Below are positions 29,582 through 48,349 of a stretch of 64,000 bases of DNA, in pieces. This stretch comes from Phaeacidiphilus oryzae TH49. GTDB taxonomy: Bacteria; Actinomycetota; Actinomycetes; Streptomycetales; Streptomycetaceae. Positions within the stretch are counted from its first letter, which is position 1. Each line of letters opens with the position of its first letter. Made by a program: the position numbers and the translations under genes. Location: positions 6,653,801 to 6,717,800 of the forward strand of contig NZ_JQMQ01000005.1 of NCBI RefSeq assembly GCF_000744815.1. Reading direction: 5' to 3'. The notes beneath the pieces were generated by a model. That model searched no databases and was not told where the DNA came from. It was given only the letters and a program-made list of their open reading frames with translations.

Positions 29582-29818
29582 ATGCCCGAGTACAACCCGC
29601 CCAGCCACGACTACACGAGCTACAGCCAGCAGACCGGACCCGGCTCCTCGACCACGGCCAGCGCCGCCGGCCAGACCTCCCAGTACGGTTCGGCTCCCAG
29701 CTACCAGGACTCCCGGTACGACCGGCCGGTCACGGAGTACCGGCCCACCTCGAGGCAGTCGGACCCGGGGCAGGCGCCCGCCTACACGAGCTCGACGGCC
29801 CGCTCGCGCTCCAAGTAG
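29582..29818 (+). CDS. Small Ser/Tyr/Pro-rich protein downstream of virD4
   Basis: 78 residues, unstructured in appearance: rich in Ser, Thr, Tyr, Gln and Pro, with repeated SY/SQ pairs and ending TSSTARSRSK. No signal peptide, membrane segment or known domain. It has its own lower-GC upstream region (29505-29575) and AGAAGGAA ribosome site. Could be a structural or secreted protein linked to the T4SS locus, but only position supports that. Confidence 0.5.
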   Translation: MPEYNPPSHDYTSYSQQTGPGSSTTASAAGQTSQYGSAPSYQDSRYDRPVTEYRPTSRQSDPGQAPAYTSSTARSRSK

Positions 29819-29908
29819 GCGGCAAAGGGGGGACTGCCGCCCTCGCCGGTCGCCGGACGTGGGCGGCACTCCCCTCAAGGAGTTCCACGCAGAAGAAGGA
29901 AGGAAGCA

Positions 29909-30753: not shown

Positions 30754-30827
30754 CGCAGGTGGCCGCACGGCGGAGCTCTGCCGCCGTGCGGCCATCCCGG
30801 CCGGCGTCGGGGCGGCCATCCCGCCAC

Positions 30828-31301: not shown

Positions 31302-31512
31302 GCGGTTCTCCTTCCACTGCTTCCACTGCGCCCACTGCGTCGCTGAGAGGCAACAACGCAGGCGATGCGGGCGGCGGTTCACGGTCGGTGAACACGGGCG
31401 TTCCCGATCTCCGGCCCGCAGGCTAGAATCGCGAGCCGCCGGTGAAGAGGCCGTCACCGCTCACCCGTGGTCGGCACGCCCGCTTCTCGAATCCGAGGTA
31501 TTCCGACACACC

Positions 31513-32787: not shown

Positions 32788-32789
32788 CC

Positions 32790-33443: not shown

Positions 33444-33899
33444 GCGCCAGTCCGCCCGCACCACGTAGGTGCCGGCGACGAGGTCGCCGAACCGCTGGTG
33501 GAAGCGGCTGGACAGCATGACCAGCAACCCGACCGCGCCCAGGAACATCGCGTCCACCACCGAGAGGACCCAGCGGATCAGCCAAGCGCCCGGCGGCGGC
33601 CGGTGGCCGGTCCGGGACACCACCCGCAGCCCCAGCAGCCGCATGCCCAGCGTCGCCGCGTCGTTGCGGACCGGCAGCCACACCTCGTTGAGCCAGGAGC
33701 CCAGCACCGCGCACCCGACGAGCCCGCACAGCGGCAGGACCGACCCCAGCGCCGGGAACGGCCGCAGCGCGCCCACCACCTCCGGCGCGCGGGCCGCGGC
33801 GAAGAACAGCAGGGAGAGGGCGAGCACGGAGAGCCGGTCGACGGCGCACTGCACACAGCGGCGGAGGACGACAGCGGTGGGATCCACGCGACTCGGCAC
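33270..33899 (-). CDS. RDD family membrane protein with 3' end antisense to the response regulator
   Basis: 209 residues. RDD domain: an Arg near the start (RCVQCAVDRLSVLALSLLFF), NDAATLGMRLLGLRVVSR, WLIRWVLSVVDAMFLGAVGL, RFGDLVAGTYVVR. Three to four membrane helices; RDD proteins are mostly uncharacterised, some are ion antiporters. The first in-frame stop is at 33270, so the last ~58 residues are coded opposite the HTH part of the response regulator and look like non-functional extension. Overlap is about 174 bases. Confidence 0.75.
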   Translation of the reverse strand: MPSRVDPTAVVLRRCVQCAVDRLSVLALSLLFFAAARAPEVVGALRPFPALGSVLPLCGLVGCAVLGSWLNEVWLPVRNDAATLGMRLLGLRVVSRTGHRPPPGAWLIRWVLSVVDAMFLGAVGLLVMLSSRFHQRFGDLVAGTYVVRADWRSPDDPGLPGPHRRLGAVAQPDLPLGAGEMSLDGGGRDGQAPGYLGVGQPPRDLPHHV

Positions 33900-34155
33900 G
33901 CCGAGATGCTACCGCCGAGCCGGGGCGGAACCGGGCCGACCCGGCCTTTGGGCCGGTTCCGGACCCTGGCCGAAAGGACGGGTTCCGCCCGGCCCCGATC
34001 GTTCTCGGGACCGACGAGGCCGGTGAGCCCCCTGTGGCACCGTCGTTCCCGATCACGACATGCGTGCCCACCGTGCGAATCGGAGTGCGGAAGACACACC
34101 ACAGGGTGGTCCGCTCCCGGGGGAGTGCCGGAGTGCGCGCAGGAAGAGGTACGAC

Positions 34156-34740
34156 GTGAACTGGACCGTACTGGGCTCCGCCGGACCGGGAGACGCCCGC
34201 GAGGGGGCGGTGCGCGCGCTCTACGAGGACCACGGCGGGAGCCTCCACACCTACGTCCAGCGGCTGGTGGGCGGGGACCGATACCGGGCCGAGGACATCG
34301 TGCAGGAGACGCTGCTGCGCTGCTGGCGGAAGCGGGCACTGGACGACGGGTCGTCCGTCCGGCCGTGGGCGTTCCGGGTGGCGCGCAACATCGTCATCGA
34401 CGAGTACCGGCAGCGCCAGGCACGACCGCAGGAGGTCGGCGGCAACGTCTGGCTGGACGAGCGGGCCTCCGAGTTCGACGACATCGAGCAGGCGATCAGC
34501 TCCGTCATGATCGGCGAGGCGCTCAGCCGGCTCAGCGCCACCCATCGGACGGTGCTCTACCAGATGTACTTCGTGGGCCGGACGACCCAGGAGGTGGCCG
34601 AGGAGCTGGGCGTGCCGGTGGGCACCGTCAAGTCCCGACTGCACTACGCCCTCCGGCAGTTGCGGCAGTCGATGCGGGACGCGGAGGGCCTCGCCCCGGC
34701 AGGGGACGCTCGCGGCAAGCCGGTAGGCGCGAGCCGGTAA
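34156..34740 (+). CDS. ECF-type RNA polymerase sigma factor
   Basis: 194 residues. Region 2: LYEDHGGSLHTYVQRLVGGD, RAEDIVQETLLRCWRK, AFRVARNIVIDEYRQR. Region 4: LSATHRTVLYQMYFVGRTTQ, EVAEELGVPVGTVKSRLHYA. It resembles the SigK/SigL-like ECF group of actinobacteria. GTG after AGGAAGAGG. No anti-sigma gene with a clear zinc-finger motif follows; the next gene is the large membrane protein. The 3' end carries a short tandem repeat. Confidence 0.87.
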   Translation: MNWTVLGSAGPGDAREGAVRALYEDHGGSLHTYVQRLVGGDRYRAEDIVQETLLRCWRKRALDDGSSVRPWAFRVARNIVIDEYRQRQARPQEVGGNVWLDERASEFDDIEQAISSVMIGEALSRLSATHRTVLYQMYFVGRTTQEVAEELGVPVGTVKSRLHYALRQLRQSMRDAEGLAPAGDARGKPVGASR

Positions 34741-34790
34741 CGGCAAGCGGGTAGCCGCGAGCCGGTTGCGGCAAGCCGTAGCGGCTGGGC
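34711..34790. repeat. 28-bp imperfect tandem repeat at the end of the ECF sigma gene
   Basis: CGGCAAGCCGGTAGGCGCGA followed by GCCGGTAA repeats as CGGCAAGCGGGTAGCCGCGA plus GCCGGTTG and a shorter third copy. The first copy encodes the sigma factor's last residues and supplies its stop codon. Confidence 0.55.
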
Positions 34791-34855
34791 GGCATCGAAC
34801 CGTTTTCCGCGGGGGGCCGTTGAGGGCAGTGACGGAGGAAGGGACGGGCACGGGC

Positions 34856-37120
34856 ATGGGTCTGAACGCAGCGGCGGACGGGACGGACCGGGAGCGGGCG
34901 CGCCCGGACGACCAGTCCGATCGGCCGGATGGGCCGGACGGGGCGGATCTGTCGGAGCGGTCGGCTGAGCCGGAGCAGTCGGGCGGGTCGGATGAGCTGA
35001 ACCTGTCGGACCTGTCGGACCGGTCGGATCGGTTCGATCGGCTCGACCCACTGGATCGGGGCGGTTTCGCGGACGCGGCGGCGGAGAGCGTTCCCATGCG
35101 GGTGATCGTCTCCGGCGACGGAACGGCGACGATCGACGGCGTGCCGGTCCCGGTGATCGCCGGGGAGACGGTCGAGGAAGCGGTCCTGGACACTCTCCAC
35201 GGATACGCGGTCAGCCGGAACGAGCCGGTCCGCGCGGTGATCTCGGACCCGTCGTCGAGTCACCAGGCAGTCGTCGACGTGGCCCCGGACGGCTCCAGCA
35301 GCCTGGTCGAGCACCAGCCGCAGGACGCCGCCCCCACCGAGCCGATCCCGCCGACGCCGGCCGCGTCCGGGCGTGACGCCGAAGCCGAAGCCGACGCTGC
35401 CACCGCCGCCGTGCCTCTCGCCGATCCCGGCATCGGCACTGGCACTGTCCCGGCACCGGGCCCGACACCCGCGCAGGCGCCGACACCGGAACCGGGGCCG
35501 GGCGCAGGACCGGATCCGGAGCCGGGCTTTGCGCCGGGCGCCGGTCTCGCGTCTGCGCCGGGGCTGGCGTCGGCGTCCGAGCCGGGCTCGGGAACAGGAC
35601 CGGATCCGGAGCCGGGCTTTGCGCCGGGCGCCGGTCTCGCGTCTGCGCCGGGGCTGGCGTCGGCGTCCGAGCCGGGCTCGGGCGCAGGACCGGATCCGGA
35701 GCCGGGCTTCGCGCCGGGCGCCGGTCTCGCGTCTGCGCCGGGGCTGGCGTCGGCATCCGGGCCGGGCTTGGGCGCAGGACCGGATCCGGAGCCGTCCTCG
35801 GCGCCGGGCGCCGGTCTCGCGCTGGGGCTGGCGTCGGCATCCGGGCCGGGCTTGGGCGCAGGACCTGATCCGGAGCTGGGTTCTGTGCCGGTGGCGGGAC
35901 TCGTATCGGCGTCGGGGCCGGGAGCGGGAGCGGGGCCGACACCGGAACCGCAGTCGCCGTCGGCGTCGGGACAGGCGCCGGCAGCAGCACCGGGAGCCGG
36001 ACCGGCGTCAGGTCCGGGCCTGGCGACGGCGCCGGGCGCGGGGCTTCGGCCGGGTCCGGGGCGGGGACCGGGCTCGGGCCCGGCGTCGGCGCCGGGGCCG
36101 GTCTCGGGGCCCGGGGCGGCGTTCGTATCGGCGTCGGCCCTCGGCGCGGGTCGGGCCGGTGGCGGTGCCGCCGCCTTCCACCAGGAGGGCGTCTCGCAAA
36201 CGCGTCAGCGTGGGCGGGGGTCGGACCAGGAGTACGAGCGGCCGGGTCTGCTCCGACGCCTGCCGCTGCCCGGCCTGGTGGGGGTTGGGGTGGCATTCGC
36301 CGTCGTCGTTCCGCTGATGCTGCTCGGCGGCCATCCGGGGCACGGGGGCGACTCCCGGGCCGGCGGCACGGCCGAGACCTCGTCCACGCCGACTGCCGCG
36401 CCCACCACCGAGGAGGCCCTGCCGGCCCTGACCGGCTCCCCCTCCGCCCGTACGACGCCGACCTCGCCCCGCCCCTCGCCCCCGCGTTCCACGGCCACGG
36501 CCAAGGCCAGGGCCACGGCCGACGCGAACACCGCGCCGACGGCCGGTGGAGGGGCCGGGGGCACACTGCTCTACGCCTCCGAGTTCGGGGCGGGCGCCCA
36601 CGGCTGGAAGGACTACGGGGGCCACTGGTCCGTGGCCGGCGGCGCCTACACCGAGTCGATGGCCGGCACCGGCGGCAACAAGGCGGTCATCGGAGACACC
36701 GGCTGGCGCGACTACGTCCTCCAGGGCGACGTGCGCGTCGGGCACTTCAGCCCCAACGGCAACGCGGGCCTCCTGGTGCGCGCCTCCGACCCGGCGACCG
36801 GGACCGACAGCCTCGACGGGTACTACGTGGGCGTCAGCGGTTCCTCCCTGATCATCGGGCGGGAGAAGTACGGCTGGAAGGAGCTGGCCGGCACGGCGAT
36901 CCCCGGCGGCCTGTCCGCCGACACCTGGTACCACCTGACCGTCCGGGTGGTCGGCTGCTCGATAGCCGTCGACGGGACCCCGGCCGCGGACCCCTCCGCT
37001 GCCCCGGTGTCGGCGGCGGTCCAGGACTGCACCTTCCTCCGCGGCGCCATCGGGGTCCGCGACTTCGCCGCCGCGGCCTCCTGGCGGGACCTCACCGTCC
37101 GCACCGCCGACACCGTCTGA
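34856..37120 (+). CDS. Large membrane protein: shared N-terminal domain, Pro/Ala/Gly repeats, LamG-like outer domain
   Basis: 754 residues. An acidic Ser/Asp-rich start is followed at ~80-155 by the small domain also seen in the TPR-like protein at 18800-19696 (VIVSGDGTATIDGVPVPVIA, VAPDGSSSLVEHQP). Residues ~160-440 are Pro/Ala/Gly repeats including a 30-residue tandem unit. One membrane helix (~470-490; VGVGVAFAVVVPLMLLGG) leads to a Ser/Thr/Pro spacer and a C-terminal concanavalin-like (LamG/DUF1080-type) domain (~565-754; SEFGAGAHGWKDYGGHWSV, NGNAGLLVRASDPATG, IIGREKYGWKELAG, TWYHLTVRV). Probably an outer sugar-binding protein. The ATG at 34856 follows GGAGGAAGGGA; GTG 34829 is an alternative. 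Confidence 0.7.
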   Translation: MGLNAAADGTDRERARPDDQSDRPDGPDGADLSERSAEPEQSGGSDELNLSDLSDRSDRFDRLDPLDRGGFADAAAESVPMRVIVSGDGTATIDGVPVPVIAGETVEEAVLDTLHGYAVSRNEPVRAVISDPSSSHQAVVDVAPDGSSSLVEHQPQDAAPTEPIPPTPAASGRDAEAEADAATAAVPLADPGIGTGTVPAPGPTPAQAPTPEPGPGAGPDPEPGFAPGAGLASAPGLASASEPGSGTGPDPEPGFAPGAGLASAPGLASASEPGSGAGPDPEPGFAPGAGLASAPGLASASGPGLGAGPDPEPSSAPGAGLALGLASASGPGLGAGPDPELGSVPVAGLVSASGPGAGAGPTPEPQSPSASGQAPAAAPGAGPASGPGLATAPGAGLRPGPGRGPGSGPASAPGPVSGPGAAFVSASALGAGRAGGGAAAFHQEGVSQTRQRGRGSDQEYERPGLLRRLPLPGLVGVGVAFAVVVPLMLLGGHPGHGGDSRAGGTAETSSTPTAAPTTEEALPALTGSPSARTTPTSPRPSPPRSTATAKARATADANTAPTAGGGAGGTLLYASEFGAGAHGWKDYGGHWSVAGGAYTESMAGTGGNKAVIGDTGWRDYVLQGDVRVGHFSPNGNAGLLVRASDPATGTDSLDGYYVGVSGSSLIIGREKYGWKELAGTAIPGGLSADTWYHLTVRVVGCSIAVDGTPAADPSAAPVSAAVQDCTFLRGAIGVRDFAAAASWRDLTVRTADTV
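35503..35925 (+). repeat. Coding 90-bp tandem repeat, about 4.5 units
   Basis: Each unit encodes ~30 residues of the type GAGPDPEPGFAPGAGLASAP plus GLASASEPGS. Units 1-3 are nearly identical; unit 4 is 6 bases shorter and the last is diverged. The near identity at the DNA level points to recent expansion or conversion. It encodes a flexible stalk. Confidence 0.8.
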
Positions 37121-37137
37121 CGCCGTTCGGTAGGCCG

Positions 37138-37245
37138 TTCGGATCACGCTCGGACGCCGTTCGGGCCAGATTCGGATCACGCTCGGACGCCGCTCCGACC
37201 ACGTTCGGACGAAGTCCGACGCCGATCGGACGCCGTCCGAGCAAG
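37138..37245. repeat. Direct repeats of TTCGGATCACGCTCGGACG in the gap before pntA
   Basis: The 22-base sequence beginning TTCGGATCACGCTCGGACG and ending CCG occurs at 37138 and 37171, 33 bases apart. Several related TCGGACGCCG blocks follow. It lies in non-coding DNA between the LamG-like gene and pntA. Could be a binding array, a mixed hairpin terminator, or just repeat slippage. Confidence 0.55.
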
Positions 37246-37436
37246 CGGGGAATCGGCCTCGCCGTGGATCGATGTGCCCGGCCTGCCCGCCCGCCGGGGC
37301 CGCCGTGTGGTGACCCATGTCACTTCTGCCCTCGCTGGGCGAGCCGGTAGGTTCATGCGTTCAAAGGGGAGAAGGACTGTACAAACCCCCCGCGCACAGA
37401 TCCCCCGTCAACCCCGTCTGGCGAGAGATACAGGAA

Positions 37437-39002
37437 ATGTCTGCTCAAGATCCCGCGCACCACCCTCCGCAGCGCGTAGGCGTGGTCGCCGAGTCCGTTT
37501 CCGGGGAGACACGCGTCGCCGCGACCCCCGCAACGGTGCGTCAACTGCTCAAGCTCGGTTACGAGGTGGTGGTCGAGCCCGAGGCCGGGGCGGCGTCCGG
37601 CTTCGCCGACGACGCGTACCTCGACGCCGGCGCCGAGATCGGCGACGCCTGGGCGACGGACGTCGTCCTGAAGGTGAACGCCCCCTCCGATGCGGAGATC
37701 GGCCGACTGCGAACGGGAGCCACGGTGGCGGGTCTGCTCGCCCCGGCACAGCACCCCGAGCTGCTGGAGGCGCTGGCCGCTGCGGGGGTGACCGCGCTCG
37801 CACTGGACGCGGTGCCGCGCATCTCGCGGGCGCAGTCGATGGACGTGCTGTCCTCGATGGCGAACATCGCCGGGTACCGGGCGGTGATCGAGGCCGCCCA
37901 TGTCTTCGGACGGTTCTTCACCGGTCAGGTGACCGCCGCCGGCAAGGTGCCGCCGGCGAAGGTGCTGGTGGCCGGGGCCGGCGTGGCCGGGCTCGCCGCC
38001 ATCGGCGCCGCGTCCAGCCTGGGCGCGATCGTCCGGGCGACCGACCCGCGGCCGGAGGTCGCGGACCAGGTGAAGTCGCTGGGCGGGGAGTACCTGCCGG
38101 TCGACGTCGCCCAGGAGGCCGGCACCGACGGCTACGCCAAGGCCACCTCGGAGGACTACGACCGGGCCGCCGCCGAGCTGTACCACGCGCAGGCCCAGGA
38201 CGTGGACATCGTCATCACCACCGCGCTGATCCCCGGGCGCCCGGCGCCGCGGCTGCTGACCGCGGCGGACGTGGCGGCGATGAAGCCGGGGAGCGTCGTC
38301 GTCGACATGGCCGCGGCGATGGGCGGCAACGTCGAGGGGACGGTCGCGGGCCGGTCGGTGGTCACCGACAACAACGTGACCATCATCGGCTACACCGACC
38401 TCGCGTCCAGGCTGCCCGCCCAGGCCTCCCAGCTGTTCGGCACCAACCTGCTGAACCTCCTCAAGCTGCTGACGCCGGAGAAGGACGGGCGGCTGGCGCT
38501 CGACTTCGACGACGTCGTGCAGCGGGCCGTGACCGTGGTCCGGGCCGGCGACGTCACCTGGCCGCCGCCGCCCGTCGCGGTCTCGGCGGCGCCCGCGGCC
38601 GCGGCCAAGCCGGCGGCCGCGACCGCCGAGCCCGCCGAGCCGGCGAAGCCGAAGCTCACCCCGGCCCGCCGCTTCGGCCTGATCGGCCTCGGCATGCTGG
38701 CCATGTTCCTGATCGTGGCCTTCGCCCCGGCCCAACTCGCCGAGAACTTCACGGTGTTCGCGCTGGCCGTGGTGATCGGTTACTACGTCATCGGCAAGGT
38801 GCACCACGCCCTCCACACGCCGCTGATGTCGGTGACCAACGCGATCTCAGGGATCGTCGTGACCGGCGCCCTGCTGCAGATCGGTCACGAGAGCTGGGTC
38901 GTCACCACGCTGTCCGCGGTGGCGATCCTGCTGACGAGCGTCAACGTCTTCGGAGGTTTCGCCGTCACCCGCCGCATGCTGTCGATGTTCTCGAAGGGCT
39001 GA
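37437..39002 (+). CDS. pntA: NAD(P) transhydrogenase subunit alpha
   Basis: 521 residues, full-length alpha subunit. The NAD-binding domain I (~1-380) has RVAATPATVRQLLKLGYEVV, SRAQSMDVLSSMANIAGYRA, KVLVAGAGVAGLAAIGAASS, VVDMAAAMGGNVEGT. An Ala/Pro linker leads to four membrane helices (~410-521; e.g. TVFALAVVIGYYVIGKV). With PntB it uses the proton gradient to make NADPH from NADH. The ATG at 37437 is supported by the start of the conserved fold; its ribosome site (AGGAA) is close and weak. pntB follows after 6 bases. Confidence 0.92.
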   Translation: MSAQDPAHHPPQRVGVVAESVSGETRVAATPATVRQLLKLGYEVVVEPEAGAASGFADDAYLDAGAEIGDAWATDVVLKVNAPSDAEIGRLRTGATVAGLLAPAQHPELLEALAAAGVTALALDAVPRISRAQSMDVLSSMANIAGYRAVIEAAHVFGRFFTGQVTAAGKVPPAKVLVAGAGVAGLAAIGAASSLGAIVRATDPRPEVADQVKSLGGEYLPVDVAQEAGTDGYAKATSEDYDRAAAELYHAQAQDVDIVITTALIPGRPAPRLLTAADVAAMKPGSVVVDMAAAMGGNVEGTVAGRSVVTDNNVTIIGYTDLASRLPAQASQLFGTNLLNLLKLLTPEKDGRLALDFDDVVQRAVTVVRAGDVTWPPPPVAVSAAPAAAAKPAAATAEPAEPAKPKLTPARRFGLIGLGMLAMFLIVAFAPAQLAENFTVFALAVVIGYYVIGKVHHALHTPLMSVTNAISGIVVTGALLQIGHESWVVTTLSAVAILLTSVNVFGGFAVTRRMLSMFSKG

Positions 39003-39008
39003 GCCGAG

Positions 39009-40475
39009 ATGACTTCCCTGACGGCCTCTCACGCGGCCTACCTGGTCGCCGCCCTGCTGTTCATCCTCAGCCTGGCCGGACTGTCCCAGCACCGCACCTC
39101 CCGCGCCGGCGTGGCCTACGGCATCGCCGGCATGGCCCTCGCGCTGATCGCCACGATCGTGGTGGCGGCGCAGAGCATCAACGCGGGGGCGGTCGCGCTG
39201 ATCCTGGTCGCCATGGCGGTGGGCGCGGCGGCCGGCCTGTGGCGGGCCCGGCGGGTCGAGATGACCCAGATGCCGGAACTCATCGCCGTACTGCACAGCT
39301 TCGTCGGCCTGGCCGCCGTGCTGGTCGGCTGGAACAGCTACCTGGAGGTGGAGTCGCACGGCACGGCGCAGACCGAGATCGCCGGCGACCTGCTGGGCAT
39401 CCACCACGCCGAGGTGTTCATCGGCATCTTCATCGGCGCGGTCACCTTCACCGGCTCGATCGTCGCCTTCCTGAAGCTGTCGGCGCGGATCAAGTCCCGC
39501 CCGCTGACGCTGCCCGGCAAGAACGCGCTGAACCTGGGCGCGCTCGCCGCCTTCGTGGTGCTGACCATCTGCTTCGTGATCAGTCCCGACCTGCCGCTGA
39601 TGATCGTGGTGACGGTGCTGGCGCTGGCGCTCGGCTGGCACCTGGTGGCCTCGATCGGCGGCGGTGACATGCCGGTCGTGGTGTCCATGCTGAACAGCTA
39701 CTCGGGGTGGGCGGCGGCCGCGGCCGGCTTCCTCCTCGACAACAACCTGCTGATCGTCACGGGTGCGCTGGTCGGCTCCTCGGGTGCCTACCTCTCCTAC
39801 ATCATGTGCAAGGCGATGAACCGGTCCTTCATCTCGGTCATCGCGGGCGGCTTCGGCATCGAGGCGCCGTCCGGCGGCGACGAGGAGCAGGGCGAGCACC
39901 GCGAGCTGCGGGCGGCCGAGGTGGCCGAGCTGCTCGCCCAGGCCGGCTCGGTGATCATCACCCCCGGCTACGGGATGGCCGTGGCCCAGGCGCAGCACCC
40001 GGTCGCGGAGCTGACCCGGCAGCTGCGGGAGCGCGGCGTCGAGGTCCGCTTCGGCGTCCACCCGGTCGCCGGGCGGCTGCCGGGACACATGAACGTGCTG
40101 CTGGCCGAGGCGAAGGTGCCGTACGACATCGTCCTGGAGATGGACGAGATCAACGACGACTTCGCGCGGACCTCGGTGGTCCTGGTGATCGGCGCAAACG
40201 ACACGGTCAACCCGGCCGCGGCCGAGGACCCGAGCAGCCCGATCGCCGGCATGCCGGTGCTGCGGGTCTGGGAGGCGGAGCAGGTCGTCGTCTTCAAGCG
40301 GTCCATGGCCTCCGGCTACGCGGGCGTGCAGAACCCGCTGTTCTTCCGCGAGAACACCGGCATGCTCTTCGGCGACGCCAAGCAGAGCGTGGAGGAGATC
40401 CTCCGCGAACTCCCCGCCGCGGGAGACGGCGACAGCCGTCCCCCGACCACCCACCGCGAGACGGCGACGAGGTAG
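39009..40475 (+). CDS. pntB: NAD(P) transhydrogenase subunit beta
   Basis: 488 residues. About nine membrane helices (residues ~8-265; [36 protein letters not shown]) and the NADP-binding domain III (~300-475) with [63 protein letters not shown]. It completes the proton-pumping transhydrogenase with PntA. A strong hairpin follows the gene. Confidence 0.93.
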
Positions 40476-40506
40476 CCGGCGGTCGGTAGCCCATAGCGGC
40501 GCGCTG

Positions 40507-40569
40507 GAGCAGGGCGGGCGGTCTGGCGCCCCGGTCGCAACGAACCGGGGCCCGGGCCGCCCGCTGCTC
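40507..40569 (+). terminator. Strong hairpin after pntB
   Basis: GAGCAGGGCGGGCGG and later CCGGT pair with ACCGG and CCGCCCGCTGCTC around a CGCAACGA loop. Position 30 bases after the pntB stop suits a transcript end. The remaining bases to 40789 hold no gene I recognise. Confidence 0.6.
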
Positions 40570-40789
40570 GGGAGCGCGGTCCCACCATGGCCCGAGAATG
40601 CCGCAAGGCCTGGGGGCGGGGCCTGCGCGGTTCTTCCACCCGTGGACGGCCGCGTTTGGCGGGCTCATCAGCGCGGCCGACGACGACCTGCCGGCCGGCG
40701 GGCACGGAGTCGTCTGGCACCGCAGAGCCCTGCGTAGCCCTCACCGGCAAGCCGTGCAGGAGGACCACCAGTTGCGCCATGGGGATCGC

Positions 40790-41506
40790 CTACTGGAATG
40801 CGCCTGATGGCGCTTCCGGCGACCACCCGCCCCCGAGGGCCTGTCGGCACAGGTGGTCGGCGGCCCGGGTGGTCTCGGGCAGGCGATAGCGGGGGGTGAG
40901 GCGGAGGGTGTGGGCGCAGGCGTGGTCGAGGTCGATGAGGTGTCCTGCGGAGACGAAGACGGGCTTGACGCCGGGGCGGGTCCGCAGCGCTCGGCCGACC
41001 ACCTCGGCGCCGTCCAGCAGCGGACTCGAGTCCCCGCGCTCGGGTCCCGGCGACTGAAAGCCGTACAGGAACGGGGTCTTGGCCACCCCGAAGGTCGGGA
41101 TCCCGGTGAGTACCCCGAGGTGGCCGGCCAGTCCGAGGCGGCGGGGGTGGGCAAGGCCGTAGCCGTCGCAGACGATCAGGTCGGGGCTGCGCCTGAGCGC
41201 GCCCAACGCGTCCAGCACGGCGGGGAGCTCGCGGAAGGCGAGCAGGCCGGGGACGTACGGGAAGGAGACCCTTCCGGCGGCGGTCGCCTCCTCCACCACG
41301 CTGAGATCTGTGCTGTCCAGCGTGACGGCGGCCGCCACCACCCGGTCCCGCGCGTCGTCGTAGGCGACGTCCACTCCGGTGATGAGCCCGCCGGAGGAGA
41401 GGTCGGGACCGGGAACCGAGACATCGACGAGCGGGCGCAACCTCTCCTGCTCGTTGATCGCCTCGGCTTCCCCACGGGGTGGAGTGAAGGGTGGGTGATT
41501 GGTCAC
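40790..41506 (-). CDS. nfi: Endonuclease V (deoxyinosine 3' endonuclease)
   Basis: 238 residues, the usual size. Catalytic and binding motifs are present: ITGVDVAYDD, SFPYVPGLLAFRELP, CDGYGLAHPRRLGLAGHLGV, FGVAKTPF, VSAGHLIDLDHAC. Endonuclease V cuts DNA or RNA near deaminated adenine (inosine). The GTG at 41506 gives the normal N-terminus (INEQERLRPLVD follows); the longer frame to 41584 looks non-coding. Faces the pntAB operon. Confidence 0.9.
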   Translation of the reverse strand: MTNHPPFTPPRGEAEAINEQERLRPLVDVSVPGPDLSSGGLITGVDVAYDDARDRVVAAAVTLDSTDLSVVEEATAAGRVSFPYVPGLLAFRELPAVLDALGALRRSPDLIVCDGYGLAHPRRLGLAGHLGVLTGIPTFGVAKTPFLYGFQSPGPERGDSSPLLDGAEVVGRALRTRPGVKPVFVSAGHLIDLDHACAHTLRLTPRYRLPETTRAADHLCRQALGGGWSPEAPSGAFQ

Positions 41507-41852
41507 CAGGAGGCCTCGAAGGTTTCGTCGGTCAGTGGGGTGCCGCTCTCGGCGACGAGGAGATCCCCGCCCGTGCACGCCCATGATCGCAGCCCTGCCG
41601 TTCCCGCGAGTCCCGCGAGTCCCGCGAGTCCTGTGCGCTAGTGGCGGTCCATCGGCTCTTGGGGGCGGGTCACCGCCGGTCCAGAAGCGTCGAGCGCGAA
41701 GCGGTTCTTCGTCTGGGCGTCGTCAAGGTTCTTGTCTCGGTGGCGATCCATGCAGCACCGTGGCGGCACTCGATCAGGCACCATGCCAGGTGTGTCAGCA
41801 GGGGAGCCGCCGGCGGAGCGGTCGTCACGGACACGGATGTCCCGGCGGGGGT
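41507..41852. other. Gap without a recognisable gene
   Basis: About 350 bases between endonuclease V and the HATPase remnant. Short frames exist on both strands but none shows a known domain or convincing ribosome site. Confidence 0.4.
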
Positions 41853-42150
41853 TCATCGCCGCCGCCGCGGTGTGCTCACCAACCCGACCGGGGTACTCGA
41901 CGACCTCACCCACTCCGGCGTGCGCGGGGTAGGCCGTCGCACCGGGGCATCGGCGATCTCGATCCGCAGGTGGGGGTCCGCAAGCAGCAGAACCCGCTGC
42001 CCGAAGCCGCGGCCGGGGACCCGGCCGCGCAGAACGGCATTGGTGGATGGCTCCGAGGTGAGCAACTCTGCCGTCCGGTACAGGTCATGGTCGGCGGGAT
42101 GCAGACCCTGGACGACGGCGAACTCGCCCCGGTTGCACGTACCTGCGCCT
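41853..42150 (-). pseudogene. Remnant of an HATPase-type (anti-sigma-like) ATP-binding protein
   Basis: The reading on this strand gives DLYRTAELLTSEPSTNAVLR, GRVPGRGFGQRVLLLADPHL, RIEIADAPVRRPTPR. This closely resembles the N-box region of the many Streptomyces single-domain ATP-binding proteins (ELLTSELVTNAVLHG, then a RxPGRxF loop, then LRIEVSD). The end is replaced by an Arg-rich unrelated tail, and the usual G-box and N-terminal third are not found. Substitutions such as SEP for SEL also suggest decay. Such proteins are often paired with DUF397 or XRE regulators. Confidence 0.45.
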
Positions 42151-42370
42151 CTGGGCGACGGAAGCCGGTCGAGCGGTGGCTCGTCTCACCCCACCCGGCT
42201 TCGCGGCCGCGACCCTGCTGGGAGCAGTCCGTGCTGAGCGATACGCGTCCTGGGCCGCCGCTGTGCCGGCCGCGCGCTGCGCATTCGCCCCCCGGGCCGC
42301 CCCGCCGCCCTGGCCGTCCTCCGCCTCCTCGCCGAATGCCCCTGCGACCTCCTGTGAGCCACACCGTGCC
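42151..42370. other. Gap without a recognisable gene
   Basis: This stretch probably holds eroded 5' sequence of the HATPase remnant; nothing further could be identified. Confidence 0.35.
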
Positions 42371-43834
42371 TCACTCGCCGACGTAGAGGCGTTCGAGGTC
42401 GATGAGTTGGATGGTCTCGTCCTGATCTGCTTGGCGTCGCAGGTCGTCGGTGAAGCCGGCGCCGCTGAAGCAGAGCAGGCGGGTGTGCTGGGCGTGTACG
42501 TCGCCGCGGGCGCGGAGGAGTTCGCGGATGTGCTGGAGGCGGTGCAGGTGGCCCGGGCCCATGGTGTCGTTCCATTTGGCCTCGCCGATGGCGAGGAGTT
42601 GTTCGCGGTCGTCGCGGCCGTGGACGGCGACGTCGACCTCGTGGCCGGTGCGGGCGGCGGGGTCGTTGACCGTGCCGGCGGTGACGCGGCTGGGGTGGCC
42701 GCCGAAGGTGTCGGGCGCGGCGTGCCAGCGGGCCCACTGCCGGCACATGGCTTCGAAGTGCGGCCCCAGCACCTTGCTGCGGAAGGCGGGCTGGGAGCGT
42801 TGCCAGACCGGTGCGGCGCGTCCGGGGCGTTCCAGGTCGCCCCAGGCCGGGCGCATGACGGCGTGGTAGAAGGTGATCAGGGGTTCGGTGATGCGGTAGG
42901 CGGAGCGGTTGCGCCGGAAGGCGTCCTCTTCGTGGCTGATCATGCCGACGTCCTCGAGGACGCCCAGGGGGTGGGCGAGGTCGGTGGATTTGCGGCCGAG
43001 GTAGTCGGCGATGCCGCCGCGCCGGGAGTTGCCGTTGGCGATCGCGGCGAGGACGGAGTGGTAGAGGGCGGTGTCGTGCAGTTCGGGTTCCTCGGCCAGC
43101 AGGTAGCGGGCCTCGCGGAAGAGCGGGCGTCCGGGGTTGAGGACGGAGCGGGTCACCCAGGGGTCGAAGTCCTCGGGGCCGGTGGGGGCGTCGCCCTGGG
43201 CGAACTCGCGGCGGTAGGCGGGGGTGCCGCCGACGATGGCGTTGGTGAGGGCTGCGGTGCGGTGGTCGGGGCTGTCCCAGAACTGGGCGGCGAGGCGGTA
43301 GTCCAGGGTGGGCACGATCAGGTCCAGACCGGCGCGGCCGCGCAACGGCGCGTTGCCGGCCAGCAGACGTCCCATGAAGGAGAGTGCGGAGCCGCACAGC
43401 AGGAGGCGCACGGGGGTGTTGGTGCGCTGGGCGGTGGGGTCCAGGGCGCGCTGGATGATGGACGGGAGGGACGGGGAGGCCTTGGCCAGGAAGGGGAACT
43501 CGTCGATGACGGCGACGGTGGGCCCGGCGGTGGCGATGCGCATCAGGCGGGCGATGGCCTCGTCCCAGTTGGCGAACCGGAAGGGGGCGGGTTCGTCCAG
43601 GTGGGCCGCGAGGGCCTCGCCGAACTGGCGCAGGGCGTCGGTCTCGGTGGTCTCGGTGGCGGTGAACATGAACCCGCCGGTGGCCTGGACGATCGCGTCC
43701 AGCAGGTAGGTCTTGCCCTGCCGGCGCCGCCCGGAGACCACGCCCAGGGTCGCGGCCGGCCCCTGGTAGCCGGCGTAGCGGACGAGCTCGGCCCACTCGA
43801 AGTCGCGATCGAACATCTCGGCAGGCTTGTCCAC
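42371..43834 (-). CDS. AAA ATPase with C-terminal nuclease-like (DUF234-type) domain
   Basis: 487 residues. N-terminal ATPase of the archaeal ATPase/ATPase_2 type: Walker A VVSGRRRQGKTYLLDAI, Walker B TVAVIDEFPFLAKA, sensor LLCGSALSFMGRLLAG. A winged-helix part follows (SRRGGIADYLGRKSTDLAHP, LGVLEDVGMISHEED). The C-terminus (~370-487) has EVDVAVHG followed by LLAIGEAKW, the D...ExK spacing of PD-(D/E)XK nucleases found in DUF234. Such genes are common in archaea and in bacterial islands; their job is unknown, with defence or selfish-element roles proposed. GTG at 43834 follows CGGAGG; a palindromic promoter lies just upstream. Confidence 0.78.
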   Translation of the reverse strand: MDKPAEMFDRDFEWAELVRYAGYQGPAATLGVVSGRRRQGKTYLLDAIVQATGGFMFTATETTETDALRQFGEALAAHLDEPAPFRFANWDEAIARLMRIATAGPTVAVIDEFPFLAKASPSLPSIIQRALDPTAQRTNTPVRLLLCGSALSFMGRLLAGNAPLRGRAGLDLIVPTLDYRLAAQFWDSPDHRTAALTNAIVGGTPAYRREFAQGDAPTGPEDFDPWVTRSVLNPGRPLFREARYLLAEEPELHDTALYHSVLAAIANGNSRRGGIADYLGRKSTDLAHPLGVLEDVGMISHEEDAFRRNRSAYRITEPLITFYHAVMRPAWGDLERPGRAAPVWQRSQPAFRSKVLGPHFEAMCRQWARWHAAPDTFGGHPSRVTAGTVNDPAARTGHEVDVAVHGRDDREQLLAIGEAKWNDTMGPGHLHRLQHIRELLRARGDVHAQHTRLLCFSGAGFTDDLRRQADQDETIQLIDLERLYVGE

Positions 43835-43849
43835 GACACCTCCGTTTCT

Positions 43850-43878
43850 ATAGGTCCATCTATTATAGGCAGACCTAT
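43850..43878 (-). promoter_or_regulatory. TATAAT -10 box inside an inverted repeat upstream of the AAA ATPase
   Basis: On the minus strand a perfect TATAAT (43862-43867) is flanked by ATAGGTC (43872-43878) and GACCTAT (43850-43856), an exact 7-bp inverted repeat. The AT-rich patch stands out from the GC-rich surroundings. A repressor dimer on the repeat would block the promoter; the ATPase itself could be the repressor (inference). Confidence 0.6.
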
Positions 43879-44009
43879 TCATGCATCGGAGCGCGCCGCA
43901 CGGCGTGGTCCTGGAAAGCGCACGGCGCCCCCGGGCTCGCTGCCGCCCATCGCCGCCTCGCGCGCCGGCGACCGGTCGGGCCGGCATCGACGTGTGGTGC
44001 CGCCCAGCG

Positions 44010-44242
44010 CGTCGACGGCCGCCTTGTGCGGGCGGAAGATCACCGGCGAGTGGATTCGTCAGGAGGCGTACTCCCGCTGCCGGTGCGGCATGGAGTAGGC
44101 GCAACTCACCGCGGGCGCGCACGGCAGGAACATCGGGTGCGCGAATCCAGCGTGATCAGCCCGATGGAGCAGTGGCTGGCTCTGTCCTTCGCACCCGGTC
44201 GGCGGGCGTCGACCATCGAGCGGCTCTCCGCCCAGCAAGGCG
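44010..44242 (+). pseudogene. Fragment of a large serine recombinase (zinc ribbon region)
   Basis: Frame one (to the TAG at 44096) reads LCGRKITGEWIRQEAYSRCR, like the recombinase zinc beta-ribbon (CGRxMxGxW....YRCR). Frame two then reads HRVRESSVISPMEQWLALSF followed by APGRRASTIERLSAQQ, like the next segment of large serine integrases (vREd.ilp.ldeWLa.lFaP). One frame change separates them. The catalytic N-terminal domain is absent. Another piece of the same kind of protein, the C-terminal end, lies at 46511-46779 in the same orientation. Confidence 0.5.
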
Positions 44243-44379
44243 CCGCCGCCGTGGACACGACAACCACCGAGGCGGCTGCCGCCCCCGCCGCGCTCGCAGC
44301 TGCGGCCAGGCCGGCCGCAGCAGTAGCACCCCAGTCCCGCCTCTCGGCGGCGTATGAGGGCAACTTGTCCGCGGTGCCC

Positions 44380-45372
44380 TCAGGTGTCGAGCAGTGCGGG
44401 AGCGATGATGTCCTCGCTGGTCAGGAGCCGCTTCGAGAGGCCCTGCTCGTGGTGGTAGCGCAGGAACGTGTCGAGGACCCTGCGGTTCGCGCCGAGACCG
44501 TAGGGCCACCAGTCCTCACCCAACAGCGCCCGGTTCTCCTCGAAGAGCTTGCTGAACCAGGGAGTGACCGCTCCCATGTGCTGCTTCAGCGCGCCGTCGC
44601 GGTACTTCTGCTGGGCGATCTCCTTGGCCTCGCAGAAGGCGCGGTAGACGGACGTCATGAGGTCGGCCTTTGCGGCCAGTTCCCGGGGCACGGCGACGAT
44701 GTGCATGGCGGGGAAGATCCCGGTGCGCCGGTAGTAGTCGCGCTCAACGGTCTCGTAGTCGGGGAAGAGCCGGGCGATCTTCTTCGAGCCGTTGAGCAGG
44801 GCCTGGGGGACATCGACCGAGATGAGTGCGTCGATCTCGCCGGACTCGAGCATCGCGCCCAAGGTCTCGCCCTCGGCCGCGTGCCGCACGTCCACCCCGT
44901 CCGGAATCGGCTGCGGGACCCAGTCGAAGGCGGGGATGGGATGGTCGGTGCCCCCGATGACCCATCGGGACTGATCAGGCGTCAGGCCGTACTCGTCGTG
45001 GAAGACGCCCTTCATCCACACGCCGGGGTCGTGCCCGAACAACGCGAACTCGCCAATGGTCTTGCCCGCGAGGTCCTGCGGCTTCTTGATGCCCGCCGCG
45101 GTGTTCACAAAGACGGCCGAGTGCCGGAAGTTGCGGTTCGGGAAGATCGGCAACGCCAGGAACGGCGAATCCTCAAGGTCGAACGTGCGCAGGAAGTAGG
45201 TCAGACCGTACTCGGCGACGTCGTAGTGGCCTTCGACGGTGCGCCGGAAGATGTCCGACACCAGCGGGGCCGTCTCGAATGTGGCGTCCACGCCGGCAAT
45301 CGGGACGCGGCCGTCCAGAAGCGCCTCGGTGTGCTCGTAGGCGTAGGCGCCGACACACAGCGGTGTGCTCAT
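44380..45372 (-). CDS. 4,5-dihydroxyphthalate decarboxylase-like / substrate-binding fold protein
   Basis: 330 residues. It resembles the Pht5 group (4,5-dihydroxyphthalate decarboxylase) and the related NMT1-type periplasmic-binding fold: CVGAYAYEHTEALLDGRVPI, YDVAEYGLTYFLRTF, ALPIFPNRNFRHSAVFVNTA, DLAGKTIGEFALFGHDPGVW, IPDGVDVRHAAEGETLGAML. No signal peptide, so a cytoplasmic enzyme of aromatic breakdown is more likely than a transport protein. The substrate is not known. Divergent from a TetR gene, which probably controls it. Confidence 0.75.
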   Translation of the reverse strand: MSTPLCVGAYAYEHTEALLDGRVPIAGVDATFETAPLVSDIFRRTVEGHYDVAEYGLTYFLRTFDLEDSPFLALPIFPNRNFRHSAVFVNTAAGIKKPQDLAGKTIGEFALFGHDPGVWMKGVFHDEYGLTPDQSRWVIGGTDHPIPAFDWVPQPIPDGVDVRHAAEGETLGAMLESGEIDALISVDVPQALLNGSKKIARLFPDYETVERDYYRRTGIFPAMHIVAVPRELAAKADLMTSVYRAFCEAKEIAQQKYRDGALKQHMGAVTPWFSKLFEENRALLGEDWWPYGLGANRRVLDTFLRYHHEQGLSKRLLTSEDIIAPALLDT

Positions 45373-45392
45373 GAGAAGGATCCTCGCTTCCG

Positions 45393-45455
45393 TGAATGAT
45401 CTTTCATCTATAGGGTGGGACCGGGCAGGGCCCGAGTGTCAAGATGAATGTTCAT
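45393..45455. promoter_or_regulatory. Two palindromic sites between the decarboxylase-like gene and its TetR
   Basis: TGAATGATCTTTCA (45393-45406) and ATGAATGTTCAT (45444-45455) are similar near-palindromes with TGAA/TTCA arms, one near each divergent start. They are likely operators of the TetR regulator. Confidence 0.5.
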
Positions 45456-45473
45456 TTACGTTGGAGGTATCGC

Positions 45474-46142
45474 ATGCCACGCATCACTCCGGAGCGCCGC
45501 GAGGCCAGGCGTGCACAGATCGTGGGGGCAGCGCGTCGGTGCTTCTCGCGGGACGGCTTCCATCAGACCTCCATGCCCGACATCGCGGCGGAGGCCGATG
45601 TCTCGGCCGGGGCGGCCTACCGGTACTTCGCAAGCAAGGACGAGATCATCCTCGCCATCGCGGAAGACGCCTTCCGGCTCGTCTTCGCTCCCATCCAGCA
45701 ACTCGCGGCGACAACCGACCACGCATCTCCCGCCGACCTGGTGGCCGCCTCCCTCAAGGCACTGAACGCCGACGACATCGTCGATGCCGCCGGAGGCCGG
45801 GTACCGGTCGAGGAGCTGTTGCGCTGCGGAGTGCAGAGCTGGTCAGAGCTACTCCGCAGTGAAACGGTGCACGCCCGCGCCCTCGAGGGCTTCCAGGGAA
45901 TGCTGCGCAGCATCGCCGACGCCCTTCGCCGCGGCCAGGCCGCCGGAGCCGTGCCCCCCGAGGTGGAGCCCGAGCGCGGTGCGCGGGCAGTGATGGCCCT
46001 GCTGCACGGATGCATCCTCCAACGCGTGGGATTCGGCCTGACCGATACGACGGGCGTCGCCGACGATATCCAGATGCTCCTTGGCCGCACCCAGGCACGG
46101 CCGCGAGAGGAAGAGCCCGAAGCGGGACACGTAGAGTCCTGA
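45474..46142 (+). CDS. TetR/AcrR family regulator
   Basis: 222 residues. N-terminal HTH: RRAQIVGAARRCFSRDGFHQ, TSMPDIAAEADVSAGAAYRY, FASKDEIILAIAED. The C-terminal ligand domain is helical (LRCGVQSWSELLRSETVHAR; VMALLHGCILQRVGFG). It lies divergent to the decarboxylase-like gene and probably represses it until an aromatic ligand binds. The ATG at 45474 has a strong TTGGAGGTAT ribosome site; an in-frame ATG 30 bases upstream lacks one. Confidence 0.85.
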   Translation: MPRITPERREARRAQIVGAARRCFSRDGFHQTSMPDIAAEADVSAGAAYRYFASKDEIILAIAEDAFRLVFAPIQQLAATTDHASPADLVAASLKALNADDIVDAAGGRVPVEELLRCGVQSWSELLRSETVHARALEGFQGMLRSIADALRRGQAAGAVPPEVEPERGARAVMALLHGCILQRVGFGLTDTTGVADDIQMLLGRTQARPREEEPEAGHVES

Positions 46143-46510
46143 GCTCGTGCATCGCTCGCGAGTAGCAGGGGTCGACGTCCTCGGTCCCTCGGGGCGGCAA
46201 CCGCACCCGGCCGGTTGCACGAGCCGAGAGTGGCAGTAGGCCCGATGAGGGATCAGAAGGGCAGCCGCTGGGCGCGTGGCAAACCAGGCCGGGACGGCGG
46301 ACTTTCTGCAGTGGTCGGCCCCTGAGCGACTGAACTCGTCCTGGCCGCATCGCAGTCCGGGCGGACCGTCCAAGTCCGTCGCACCGATCCGCGGATGGTC
46401 GCTGCTTACTGACGTCCGCCTCGACCGAGTCGGTCCGGTCGGCGACTGCCGAGAAGGGTCTGACCCTCCATGAGGGATGCCGGCGCGTCATGCAGGGGAC
46501 CTGGAACCAT
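46143..46510. other. Gap without a recognisable gene
   Basis: About 370 bases with no gene that I can support. It lies directly before the recombinase tail and may be eroded island DNA. Confidence 0.4.
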
Positions 46511-46779
46511 GACCGGGCCAGCCCAGGCTGAGTCTCAGCGGGACGGAGATCCACGATCCCGTCGACGCCCTGGGTGACCTCTCGACTGCGATCCAACACG
46601 CCGATGCGGAACGGAAGGCCGAGGTCTATCGACATCTCGGACTCAGGCTCACCTTTGACGACGCAAAACGGACGGTCGCGGCTGTCATTCAGCCGAGACC
46701 GCCCGTGGGCGTACTGGTGGTGTCCGAGGGGGGACTTGAACCCCCACGCCCGATAAAGGGCACTAGCACCTCAAGCTAG
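46511..46779 (+). pseudogene. C-terminal tail of a serine recombinase running into tRNA-Leu
   Basis: After a TGA at 46510 the frame reads LSLSGTEIHDPVDALGDLST, AIQHADAERKAEVYRHLGLR, LTFDDAKRTVAAVIQ. This matches the end of large serine recombinases (LGDL...L.dAdp.dKaevYrqLGLrLTy). The frame then enters the antisense of tRNA-Leu (VVSEGGLEPPRP) and stops at 46777. An integrase ending exactly at a tRNA 3' end is typical of an integrated element. The rest of the gene is missing here; a second fragment is at 44010-44242. Confidence 0.6.
46718..46760. other. Candidate attachment site (3' half of tRNA-Leu)
   Basis: The 3' end of a tRNA gene touches a recombinase remnant, the usual geometry of an integrated element. 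No second copy of this sequence was noticed in the window, so the other att site is outside or lost. Confidence 0.4.
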
Positions 46780-46805
46780 CGCGTCTGCCATTCCGCCACC
46801 CGGAC
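46718..46805 (-). tRNA. tRNA-Leu (anticodon GAG)
   Basis: Reads 5' GTCCGGG...CTCGGAC-A-CCA on the minus strand. The anticodon arm is CTAGC-TTGAGGT-GCTAG with anticodon GAG. A long variable arm (GCCC TTTATC GGGC) and a T arm (GGGGGTTCAAGTCCCCC) are present, so a class II leucine tRNA. CCA is encoded. It decodes CUC/CUU. Confidence 0.93.
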
Positions 46806-47020
46806 AAGGCGTCGTTCGCGCCGCCGGGGCGGGCTGTCGCCCATGTCGGCCGCGCTGACGGGGATAAACATAGCAGAGGACCGCGGAAGATCGAAAACCG
46901 CTTCGGGACCCCCTCGGAGCTGCGGTGATGGCGGGGCGCTGTTGGGTACCGGGGTGGGGAGGGGGGAGGATGGCGGAGCCGCGCCCGTACGGGCGATGAG
47001 GGGCGATGAGGAGGGAACGC

Positions 47021-48349
47021 GTGAGCGAGTCGACGCAGTCGACGACGGCGGTGACCGGCGAGAGCGAGGTCGCCGATCTCTGCCGGGACCTGATCCGGAT
47101 CGACACCAGCAACTACGGCAACAACGAGGGCCCCGGGGAGAGGGCGGCGGCGGAGTACGTGGCCGAGAAGCTCGCCGAGGTCGGCGTCGAGGCCAAGATC
47201 ATCGAGTCGGCCAAGGGCCGGGCCAGCGCGGTCGCCCGGATCGAGGGCGAGGACCGCTCGCGTCCCGGGCTGCTGATCCACGGGCACACGGACGTGGTCC
47301 CGGCCAACGCCGAGGACTGGACCCACCACCCCTTCTCGGGCGAGGTCGCGGACGGCTGCGTCTGGGGTCGCGGGGCCGTCGACATGAAGGACATGGACGC
47401 GATGACGCTCGCCGTCATCCGCGAGCGGCTGCGCACCGGGCGCAAGCCCCCGCGCGACATCGTCCTGGCCTTCCTCGCCGACGAGGAGGCCGGCGGGACC
47501 TACGGGGCCCGGTACCTGGTGGACCGCCACCCCGATCTCTTCGAGGGCGTCACCGAGGCGATCGGCGAGGTCGGCGGCTTCTCCTTCACCGTCAACGACG
47601 ACCTGCGGCTCTACCTCATCGAGACCGCCGAGAAGGGGATGCACTGGATGCGGCTGACCGTCGAGGGGACGGCCGGCCACGGATCCATGACCAACGACGA
47701 CAACGCGATCACCGAGCTGTGCGAGGCGGTCGCCCGGCTCGGCCGGCACAAGTTCCCGGTGCGGGTGACCAAGACCGTCCGCGCCTTCCTGGACGAGCTG
47801 TCGGACGCCCTCGGCGTCGAGCTGGACCCGGAGGACATGGACGCCACCCTGGCCAAGCTCGGCGGAATCGCCAAGCTGATCGGGGCCACCCTGCGGAACA
47901 CCGCGCAGCCCACCATGCTCGGCTCCGGCTACAAGGTGAACGTCATCCCCGGCGAGGCCACCGCGCATGTGGACGGGCGCTTCCTGCCCGGCCTTGAGGA
48001 CGAGTTCCTGGCCGAGCTGGACTCGGTGCTCGGCCCCCGCGTCCGCCGCGAGGACGTCCACGCCGACAAGGCGTACGAGACCTCCTTCGACGGGGCGCTG
48101 GTGGACGCCATGCAGTCCGCGCTGCGCGCCGAGGACCCGATCGCCCGGGCGGTGCCCTACTGCCTCTCCGGCGGGACGGACGCGAAGTCCTTCTCCGATC
48201 TGGGCATCCGCTGCTTCGGCTTCGCCCCGCTGCGGCTGCCGCCTGAGCTGGACTTCGCAGGGATGTTCCACGGCGTGGACGAGCGCGTCCCGGTGGACGG
48301 ACTTCAGTTCGGCGTGCGGGTGCTGGATCGTTTCCTCGATGGGTGCTGA
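47021..48349 (+). CDS. M20 family metallopeptidase (ArgE/DapE/dipeptidase group)
   Basis: 442 residues. Metal-binding motifs: LIHGHTDVVPAN, GRGAVDMKDMDA, LADEEAGGTYGARYLV; dimerisation domain with TAGHGSMTNDDNAI; late SGGTDAKSFSDLGIRCFGF and GVDERVPVDGL. It hydrolyses small peptides or N-acyl amino acids in the cytoplasm; the exact substrate cannot be read. GTG 47021 follows GGAGGG at good spacing. A long hairpin terminator follows. Confidence 0.88.
   Translation: MSESTQSTTAVTGESEVADLCRDLIRIDTSNYGNNEGPGERAAAEYVAEKLAEVGVEAKIIESAKGRASAVARIEGEDRSRPGLLIHGHTDVVPANAEDWTHHPFSGEVADGCVWGRGAVDMKDMDAMTLAVIRERLRTGRKPPRDIVLAFLADEEAGGTYGARYLVDRHPDLFEGVTEAIGEVGGFSFTVNDDLRLYLIETAEKGMHWMRLTVEGTAGHGSMTNDDNAITELCEAVARLGRHKFPVRVTKTVRAFLDELSDALGVELDPEDMDATLAKLGGIAKLIGATLRNTAQPTMLGSGYKVNVIPGEATAHVDGRFLPGLEDEFLAELDSVLGPRVRREDVHADKAYETSFDGALVDAMQSALRAEDPIARAVPYCLSGGTDAKSFSDLGIRCFGFAPLRLPPELDFAGMFHGVDERVPVDGLQFGVRVLDRFLDGC

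Follow-up and report, generated by a model that had tools for sequence, protein, structure and literature searches.

Which events left pieces of a large serine integrase beside a tRNA-Leu(GAG) gene of Phaeacidiphilus oryzae TH49, and did those pieces once form one gene or more? The stretch analysed (the window) comprises 64,000 nucleotides of contig NZ_JQMQ01000005.1 (G000:C5:6653801-6717800 in a 7.8 Mb genome; G+C 73.6%). An earlier, sequence-only reading had described one serine integrase ending at the tRNA and interrupted by the insertion of a decarboxylase-like gene and its TetR regulator. The analysis corrects this to two overlapping integrase remnants, not one split gene. The locus is probably (at a probability of roughly 0.7) a decayed stack of elements integrated at tRNA-Leu(GAG), where two or more large serine integrases, from different subfamilies of a family that targets this tRNA, would once have been active. 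The features concerned, in window coordinates, are as follows.

44015-44283, + strand: remnant A, a zinc ribbon (44015-44134), then a frameshifted coiled-coil start (44131-44283); 13.0 and 17.9 bits with a 27-member profile
44380-45372, - strand: open gene for a 330-residue protein resembling 4,5-dihydroxyphthalate decarboxylase (PDB 9jp7, E 9.4e-60)
45444-46142, + strand: open gene for a TetR-family regulator, divergent from the decarboxylase-like gene (Pfam TetR_N, E 3.3e-17)
46436-46519, + strand: remnant B, piece 1, the initial half of a zinc ribbon of its own, with weak similarity from 46340 (segment scan, 17.9 bits)
46519-46779, + strand: remnant B, piece 2, a C-terminal tail running into tRNA-Leu, with a TAG stop at 46777-46779 (85 bits, E 1e-27)
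46718-46805, - strand: tRNA-Leu(GAG), the target gene (ARAGORN; Rfam RF00005, 51.9 bits at 46721-46805)
46720-46742, no strand given: presumed attachment (att) core, 23 bp of the tRNA 3' end, inferred for Phaeacidiphilus from the element ends of two relatives, G248 and G017
47006-48349, + strand: M20 peptidase gene, the conserved neighbor on the 5' side of the tRNA (same neighbor in 13 relatives)

A scan with the tail brought up relatives of the integrase pieces. Four loci of Nocardia and one of Parafrankia contain stop-to-stop open reading frames (ORFs) of 597-631 residues, each with its last codons and stop inside tRNA-Leu(GAG). The N-terminus of all five resembles that of serine recombinases and has an invariant S11, the presumed catalytic serine. 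Two profiles, one built from the five proteins and one from 27 members (22 over 500 residues plus those five), were scanned across the six frames of the whole window. Each profile gives only four positive-scoring matches, all on the + strand, at 44015-44134, 44131-44283, 46436-46519, and 46519/46528-46776. The N-terminal, resolvase-type catalytic domain has no positive match in the six frames of the window, which says that the pieces are dead, not that they are unrelated to large serine integrases. The zinc ribbon and the C-terminal region are present by homology to the relatives: remnant A has the ribbon and the start of the coiled coil, and remnant B has half a ribbon and the tail.

In remnant A, the zinc-ribbon piece CGRKITGEWIRQEAYSRCRC is confirmed on the + strand at 44.0 kb. 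It covers profile positions 353-392 (44015-44134) and is continued in a second frame by positions 392-442 (44131-44283); the coiled-coil similarity perhaps extends to about 44370. When the segment 43838-44379 was subjected to dinucleotide shuffling, none of 500 shuffles scored as high as the real sequence, whichever profile was used. No N- or C-terminal integrase part was found for this remnant. The closest relative of both its parts is the integrase of G210 (L169), followed, for the latter part, by that of G042 (L159), and these two integrases also read into tRNA-Leu(GAG). As judged from such similarity, remnant A is the predicted zinc-ribbon/coiled-coil leftover of a large serine integrase.

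Remnant B begins with a second zinc-ribbon piece, which lies directly before the tail and was absent from the sequence-only reading. This piece covers profile positions 346-370 (46445-46519; from 46436 with the five-member profile), and the tail covers positions 491-569 (46519-46752; starting at 46519/46528 and reaching 46776 with the five-member profile). Thus, about 120 residues (371-490) are gone between the two pieces, and the frame shifts at a junction that holds no insert. In the segment 46143-46521, piece 1 scores 17.9 bits, whereas the highest-scoring shuffle has 4.2 (with either profile, 0 of 500 dinucleotide shuffles come up to its score). The tail, predicted by homology to be the C-terminus of a large serine integrase, is up to 58% identical to its relatives with the tRNA-coded end and up to 48% identical without it. 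It does run into tRNA-Leu(GAG), as had been noticed, since its TAG stop lies within the tRNA gene on the opposite strand. The closest relatives of remnant B are the Nocardia and Parafrankia integrases that read into the same tRNA. Pfam has no match on the zinc-ribbon piece of remnant A or on the C-terminal tail; phage records have no match for the tail, and plasmid records have one partial match to it, from Mycolicibacterium aubagnense.

The pieces of integrase first seen on the + strand are therefore real, as the profiles and the shuffles for A and for piece 1 of B indicate; they are not, however, parts of one integrase. A zinc ribbon is present in both remnants, as CGRKITGEWIRQEA in A and CRRVMQGTWNHDRA in B, and only 5 of the 14 residues are identical. 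In profile coordinates, A (353-442) and B (346-370 plus 491-569) have positions 353-370 in common, and A holds, besides this shared ribbon part, some of what B has lost. Because both contain a zinc ribbon, of different sequence and with different nearest relatives, A and B are not halves of one gene. At the subfamily level, the fragments come from different integrases, A being nearest to that of G210 and B to those of Nocardia and Parafrankia; fragments from different integrases had been named beforehand, in the sequence-only reading, as an outcome that would refute it. The two integrases have a like target and the same orientation at one tRNA, as in an accretion of tandem elements.

How this tRNA is used by working elements is seen in a wider search of 297 genomes, a draw from the larger family. 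An integrase match at E <= 1e-60 is present in 29 of them. At most four candidates were scored per genome, and 30 loci (the best of the 29 genomes and the second of G017) were read out of the 47 listed matches. Among these 30 loci (L153-L182), 20 have an integrase ORF whose end lies inside tRNA-Leu(GAG), and all three frames are used: seven ORFs read GLEPP(R/C)P, seven GDLNPHA, and six GGT or GRGT, then stop. Eight more loci have the tRNA 123-821 bp past the end of the ORF, with some of the ORFs broken, and two have none in the locus. Counted by genome, 27 of 297 have their best integrase match, whether intact or partial, at or close to tRNA-Leu(GAG). The interest of this family lies in one tRNA end serving three reading frames and several element types.

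Left element ends were sought in four regions of relatives and found in two. In G248 (C1:7406470-7450093), GTGTCCGAGGGGGGACTTGAACC, a 23-bp repeat of the tRNA end, is present at both ends of 43.6 kb, and its left copy lies directly behind an older integrase tail that is 81% identical to the inner one. In G017, a 94.9 kb element has a 22 bp tRNA-end repeat with one mismatch. The DNA past the left core is alike in the two genomes (TAC, G or A, CACATGCC). This motif of core plus arm occurs at nine places in six of the 297 genomes, and a reversed-pattern control gives no match; five of the six genomes also belong to the 29 that have a strong match to the integrase (three of four when the two genomes that supplied the motif are set aside). 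In G248, the left-end motif recurs with two mismatches about 40 kb outward, which is consistent with stacking of elements in that genome. Proteins of the G017 element include Replic_Relax, TrwB-like, TraG P-loop (VirB4-like), PrgI, and NlpC/P60 proteins, and those of the G248 island include the CRISPR-Cas proteins Cas3, Cse1, and Cas1, helicase and RHS proteins, together with a NACHT match just under the cut-off. Given these contents, both conjugative and defense-bearing elements use this site. The members of the family in G017 and G248 resemble remnant B in that the integrase reads into tRNA-Leu(GAG); without the tRNA-coded end, the tail of B is 44% identical to that of G017, and with it, 51% identical to that of G248. 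In these relatives the integrase is open and the left att copy is followed by an outer arm that both share; neither was found at the Phaeacidiphilus locus.

The surroundings of the tRNA differ on its two sides. To the right, the neighborhood with the M20 peptidase gene is kept in 13 relatives (10, plus three from a second comparison), so this is the conserved side. To the left, blastn of the 18 kb in eight relatives, counting alignments of at least 70 bp, gives no match to the left DNA of the window save the tRNA, and this side is therefore variable. Comparison of the locus among relatives had been proposed as a check; the tail is absent at E <= 1e-4 from all 10 loci compared from the M20 side (two of them, L099 and L103, with short left flanks). 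The view that an old integrated element lies at tRNA-Leu holds up: there is decayed mobile-element DNA at the 3' end of the tRNA, relatives of the integrase, many of them intact, occupy the same site in other genomes, and two of the four regions examined there are bounded by repeats of the tRNA end.

The overlapping remnants, their decay, the overlap with the tRNA, and the site used by the relatives are observed directly. A history that accounts for the locus can be read from the relatives; for Phaeacidiphilus, we infer the recombination itself, the order of events, and the origin of the gene pair. The circular form of the element would carry its attachment site, attP, at the 3' end of the integrase gene. 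The integrase would recombine attP with the 3' end of the tRNA gene, leaving the tRNA whole. Once integrated, the integrase gene would run antisense into the tRNA, which would provide the last codons and the stop. A further element of the same specificity could then insert next to the tRNA, pushing the older element and its integrase outward. Remnant B would thus be the inner integrase, still abutting the tRNA, and remnant A the integrase of an element further out. Both integrases would later have been deleted in part and frameshifted, with the decarboxylase-like/TetR pair remaining between them. More speculatively, and with little confidence on our part, actinobacteria may have a large serine integrase family dedicated to tRNA-Leu(GAG), whose last residues and stop come from the antisense strand of the tRNA in the integrated state and from the outer arm of attP in the excised circle, in any of the three frames; the two alternative ends could signal the integrated state and bias the protein toward integration or excision.

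Several results weigh against a stack of elements at this tRNA. Remnant A is short, and its scores are modest. The second att copy suggested by the sequence-only reading was not found in the window, where a 25-mer taken from the tRNA end, allowing as many as three mismatches, matches the tRNA only. For a left att, a search of 103.8 kb with a 22-mer and up to two mismatches finds only the two tRNAs there, and a genome-wide search for the G017/G248 motif, again with up to two mismatches, finds none in this genome. The best candidate for a decayed core in 41585-46717 has 14 of 23 positions, compared with a mean of 14.8 in 100 shuffles. Because no left att was found, no element boundary can be drawn, and it is the two integrases that argue for stacking here. 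Among the relatives, no left end was detected in G016 (100 kb) or at the second G017 locus (120 kb), where the tRNA alone matched; these two of four regions have slightly lowered our confidence in a stack. In addition, one genome with the left-end motif, G232, lacks a strong integrase match, and no element with a decarboxylase-like/TetR pair was seen at this tRNA. Other searches bear on the boundary as well. No repeat of the tRNA end is among the 20 of 29 direct-repeat families listed for 30-48.4 kb. A possible decayed att at C5:6639400 in this genome matches a model of attP at 25 of 36 positions (the next best non-tRNA places reach at most 23) and is not used as evidence. Synteny in six relatives gives scattered gene-level matches to window 25000-44400 and to L086, with no evident common block among the matches listed.

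The alternative that survives best concerns the gene pair. The decarboxylase-like gene and the TetR gene are indeed intact between the pieces, as had been claimed: the first is an open gene for 330 residues on the - strand, and the second is open and divergent from it. The decarboxylase-like assignment of the 330-residue protein holds as a prediction from homology; NCBIfam has no name for it. At E <= 1e-50, its relatives are present in 24 of the 297 genomes including its own (23 of 296 others). Of 26 other matches listed, 11 loci besides that of the window were compared. A TetR-like match adjoins the decarboxylase-like gene in nine of the 11 (one of them weak, 37%, in L211), and in six, one unbroken alignment spans both genes and the spacer, starting at 44371-44384 and ending at 46065-46081. 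Since the TetR-like match so often adjoins and the alignment is unbroken in six loci, the two genes form a unit that has a history of its own and occurs in other genera as well. It is perhaps the surviving cargo of the inner element. It is also quite conceivable, if somewhat less so than not, that there are two integrase remnants and that the pair belongs to neither element, having recombined later into dead element DNA. Such an arrival would fit the open state of the pair between two dead integrases and the existence of the unit in other genera; yet there is no positive sign of a separate insertion, with edge repeats and transposases not searched for specifically.

A stack of elements must also be weighed against a larger, single one. 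The genome has three tRNA-Leu(GAG) genes of 98-100% identity; of 24 other family genomes compared, none of the same genus, 23 have two (at least 92% identity) and one has a single copy. Judged by matches over 150 bp, the one at C5:256424 corresponds to the second locus of G013 and G024. The third, at C5:6652172-6652257 (L086 18173-18258), lies 1.5 kb left of the window and 48.3 kb left of the window copy, to which it is identical at 86 of 86 bases. It is flanked on one side by an integrase tail of its own, which brings the integrase remnants to three (A, B, and this tail), and on the other by a Na+/H+ antiporter gene (PF06965). Between the two tRNAs, conjugation-type genes occupy window 8162-29461: NlpC/P60 plus SLT, a weak TrbL, and the following two.

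25316-27544, + strand: weakly VirB4-like ATPase (NCBIfam matches far under the cut-offs; no Pfam match)
27611-29461, + strand: TraG/TraD-type coupling protein, a clear match (PF12696, 107 bits)

No relaxase match was obtained among the ORFs scanned, a subset of those in the window. The 48.3 kb left of the window tRNA may thus be a dead conjugative element. It has been considered whether everything between the tRNA at C5:6652172 and that of the window is one such element (with genes of type IV secretion system type at 8-30 kb) that brought along an entire tRNA-Leu gene and had B as its integrase. We regard this as unlikely, though it has points in its favor: the third tRNA copy is peculiar to this genome and identical to the window copy, conjugation-type genes lie inside, and the related integrase of G017 is on a conjugative element. 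However, the left tRNA, with its own integrase tail and no attP-type flank, has the look of a right end belonging to another element; no left att was found; and at the two mapped element ends, what remains on the far side is just the 3' end of the tRNA instead of the complete gene. Moreover, when the window genes were compared with the regions of G017, G016, and G248, the NlpC/P60 protein was the only one to match, in G017 and G016.

The antiporter gene itself starts left of the window and has a DsbA/thioredoxin-like domain at its C-terminus (window 24-857, + strand). Such a gene was found beside the tRNA in 0 of 80 loci and in none of the 20 regions L117-L136 (19 of relatives and one of its own genome); antiporter-like DNA lies elsewhere in the relatives.

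An improbable alternative is that A and B are diverged copies of one integrase that arose by tandem duplication and later suffered deletions. They do lie on one strand, 2.4 kb apart, but the 5 of 14 identical residues and the different nearest relatives speak against it. In addition, at the DNA level the longest-scoring local match that the two segments share spans 18 bp and lies out of register; as this DNA comparison has no background control, duplication is given slightly more weight than it would otherwise have. Last, that the gene pair inserted into one integrase gene and split it is highly improbable, even with the pieces on the same strand in the right order and remnant A reaching the pair on the left (its match ends at 44283-44370 and the gene stops at 44380): an insertion duplicates no part of the protein beyond a short target repeat of identical sequence, whereas here ribbon positions 353-370 occur in both pieces in different sequence, the tail has its own ribbon directly before it, and 371-490 are missing from B although nothing is inserted at its junction.

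Other features of the window were noted in passing. To the left of remnant A lies the following gene.

42371-43837, - strand: AAA-type ATPase gene, with an inverted repeat (ATAGGTC ... GACCTAT, 43850-43878) just upstream

This repeat, seen by eye, adjoins the upstream end of the gene and is possibly its operator. The pntAB genes (37317-40475) lie within 10 kb of tRNA-Leu(GAG); in Streptomyces albidus (L082 109-3132), pntAB is also near tRNA-Leu(GAG), in the opposite orientation relative to the window. A tRNA-Arg call at 38601-38688 was dropped, as it is inside pntA and has no Rfam listing. An array of tandem repeats, its units 84-90 bp apart, occupies 35378-36001, and a chaplin domain is encoded at 48.5 kb. 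Further left, a 1043-residue ORF (14645-17776, + strand) joins a thaumatin domain to a glycosyl-hydrolase catalytic core, and two GvpL/GvpF gas-vesicle genes flank a polyketide-cyclase-domain gene (2743-7240).

The conserved tRNA could serve as a docking site for integration tools and is a place to look for conjugative and defense islands, and comparable sites have been described. According to a 2011 survey, eight mycobacterial serine recombinases integrate in one tRNA-Leu gene, and integration of serine recombinases in tRNA genes is called rare (Ghinet et al. 2011, PMC3218068). At tRNA-Leu(GAG) in the present sample such integrases are not rare, as judged from the 27 genomes counted above, and element ends have been mapped in two. 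In the open-access literature, nothing further was found on tRNA-Leu with a serine integrase or recombinase; a description elsewhere is possible. The Mycobacterium actinobacterial integrated conjugative elements (AICEs) of the survey share with the locus described here the serine recombinases and the tRNA-Leu target. They differ in that the relatives here belong to Streptomycetaceae, Nocardia, and Frankia and the remnants are dead. For stacking, the nearest parallel comes from Streptomyces, where accretion of AICEs has been described at a tRNA-Arg gene (PMC9513070). That case involves another tRNA and AICEs with surviving repeats, whereas the present locus has serine integrases and no surviving repeat was found; what the two cases share is the stacking, proposed for the present one, of several elements and a remnant with different integrases at one tRNA. 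With serine integrases at tRNA-Leu already published, the Phaeacidiphilus locus is real, old, and of a known type.

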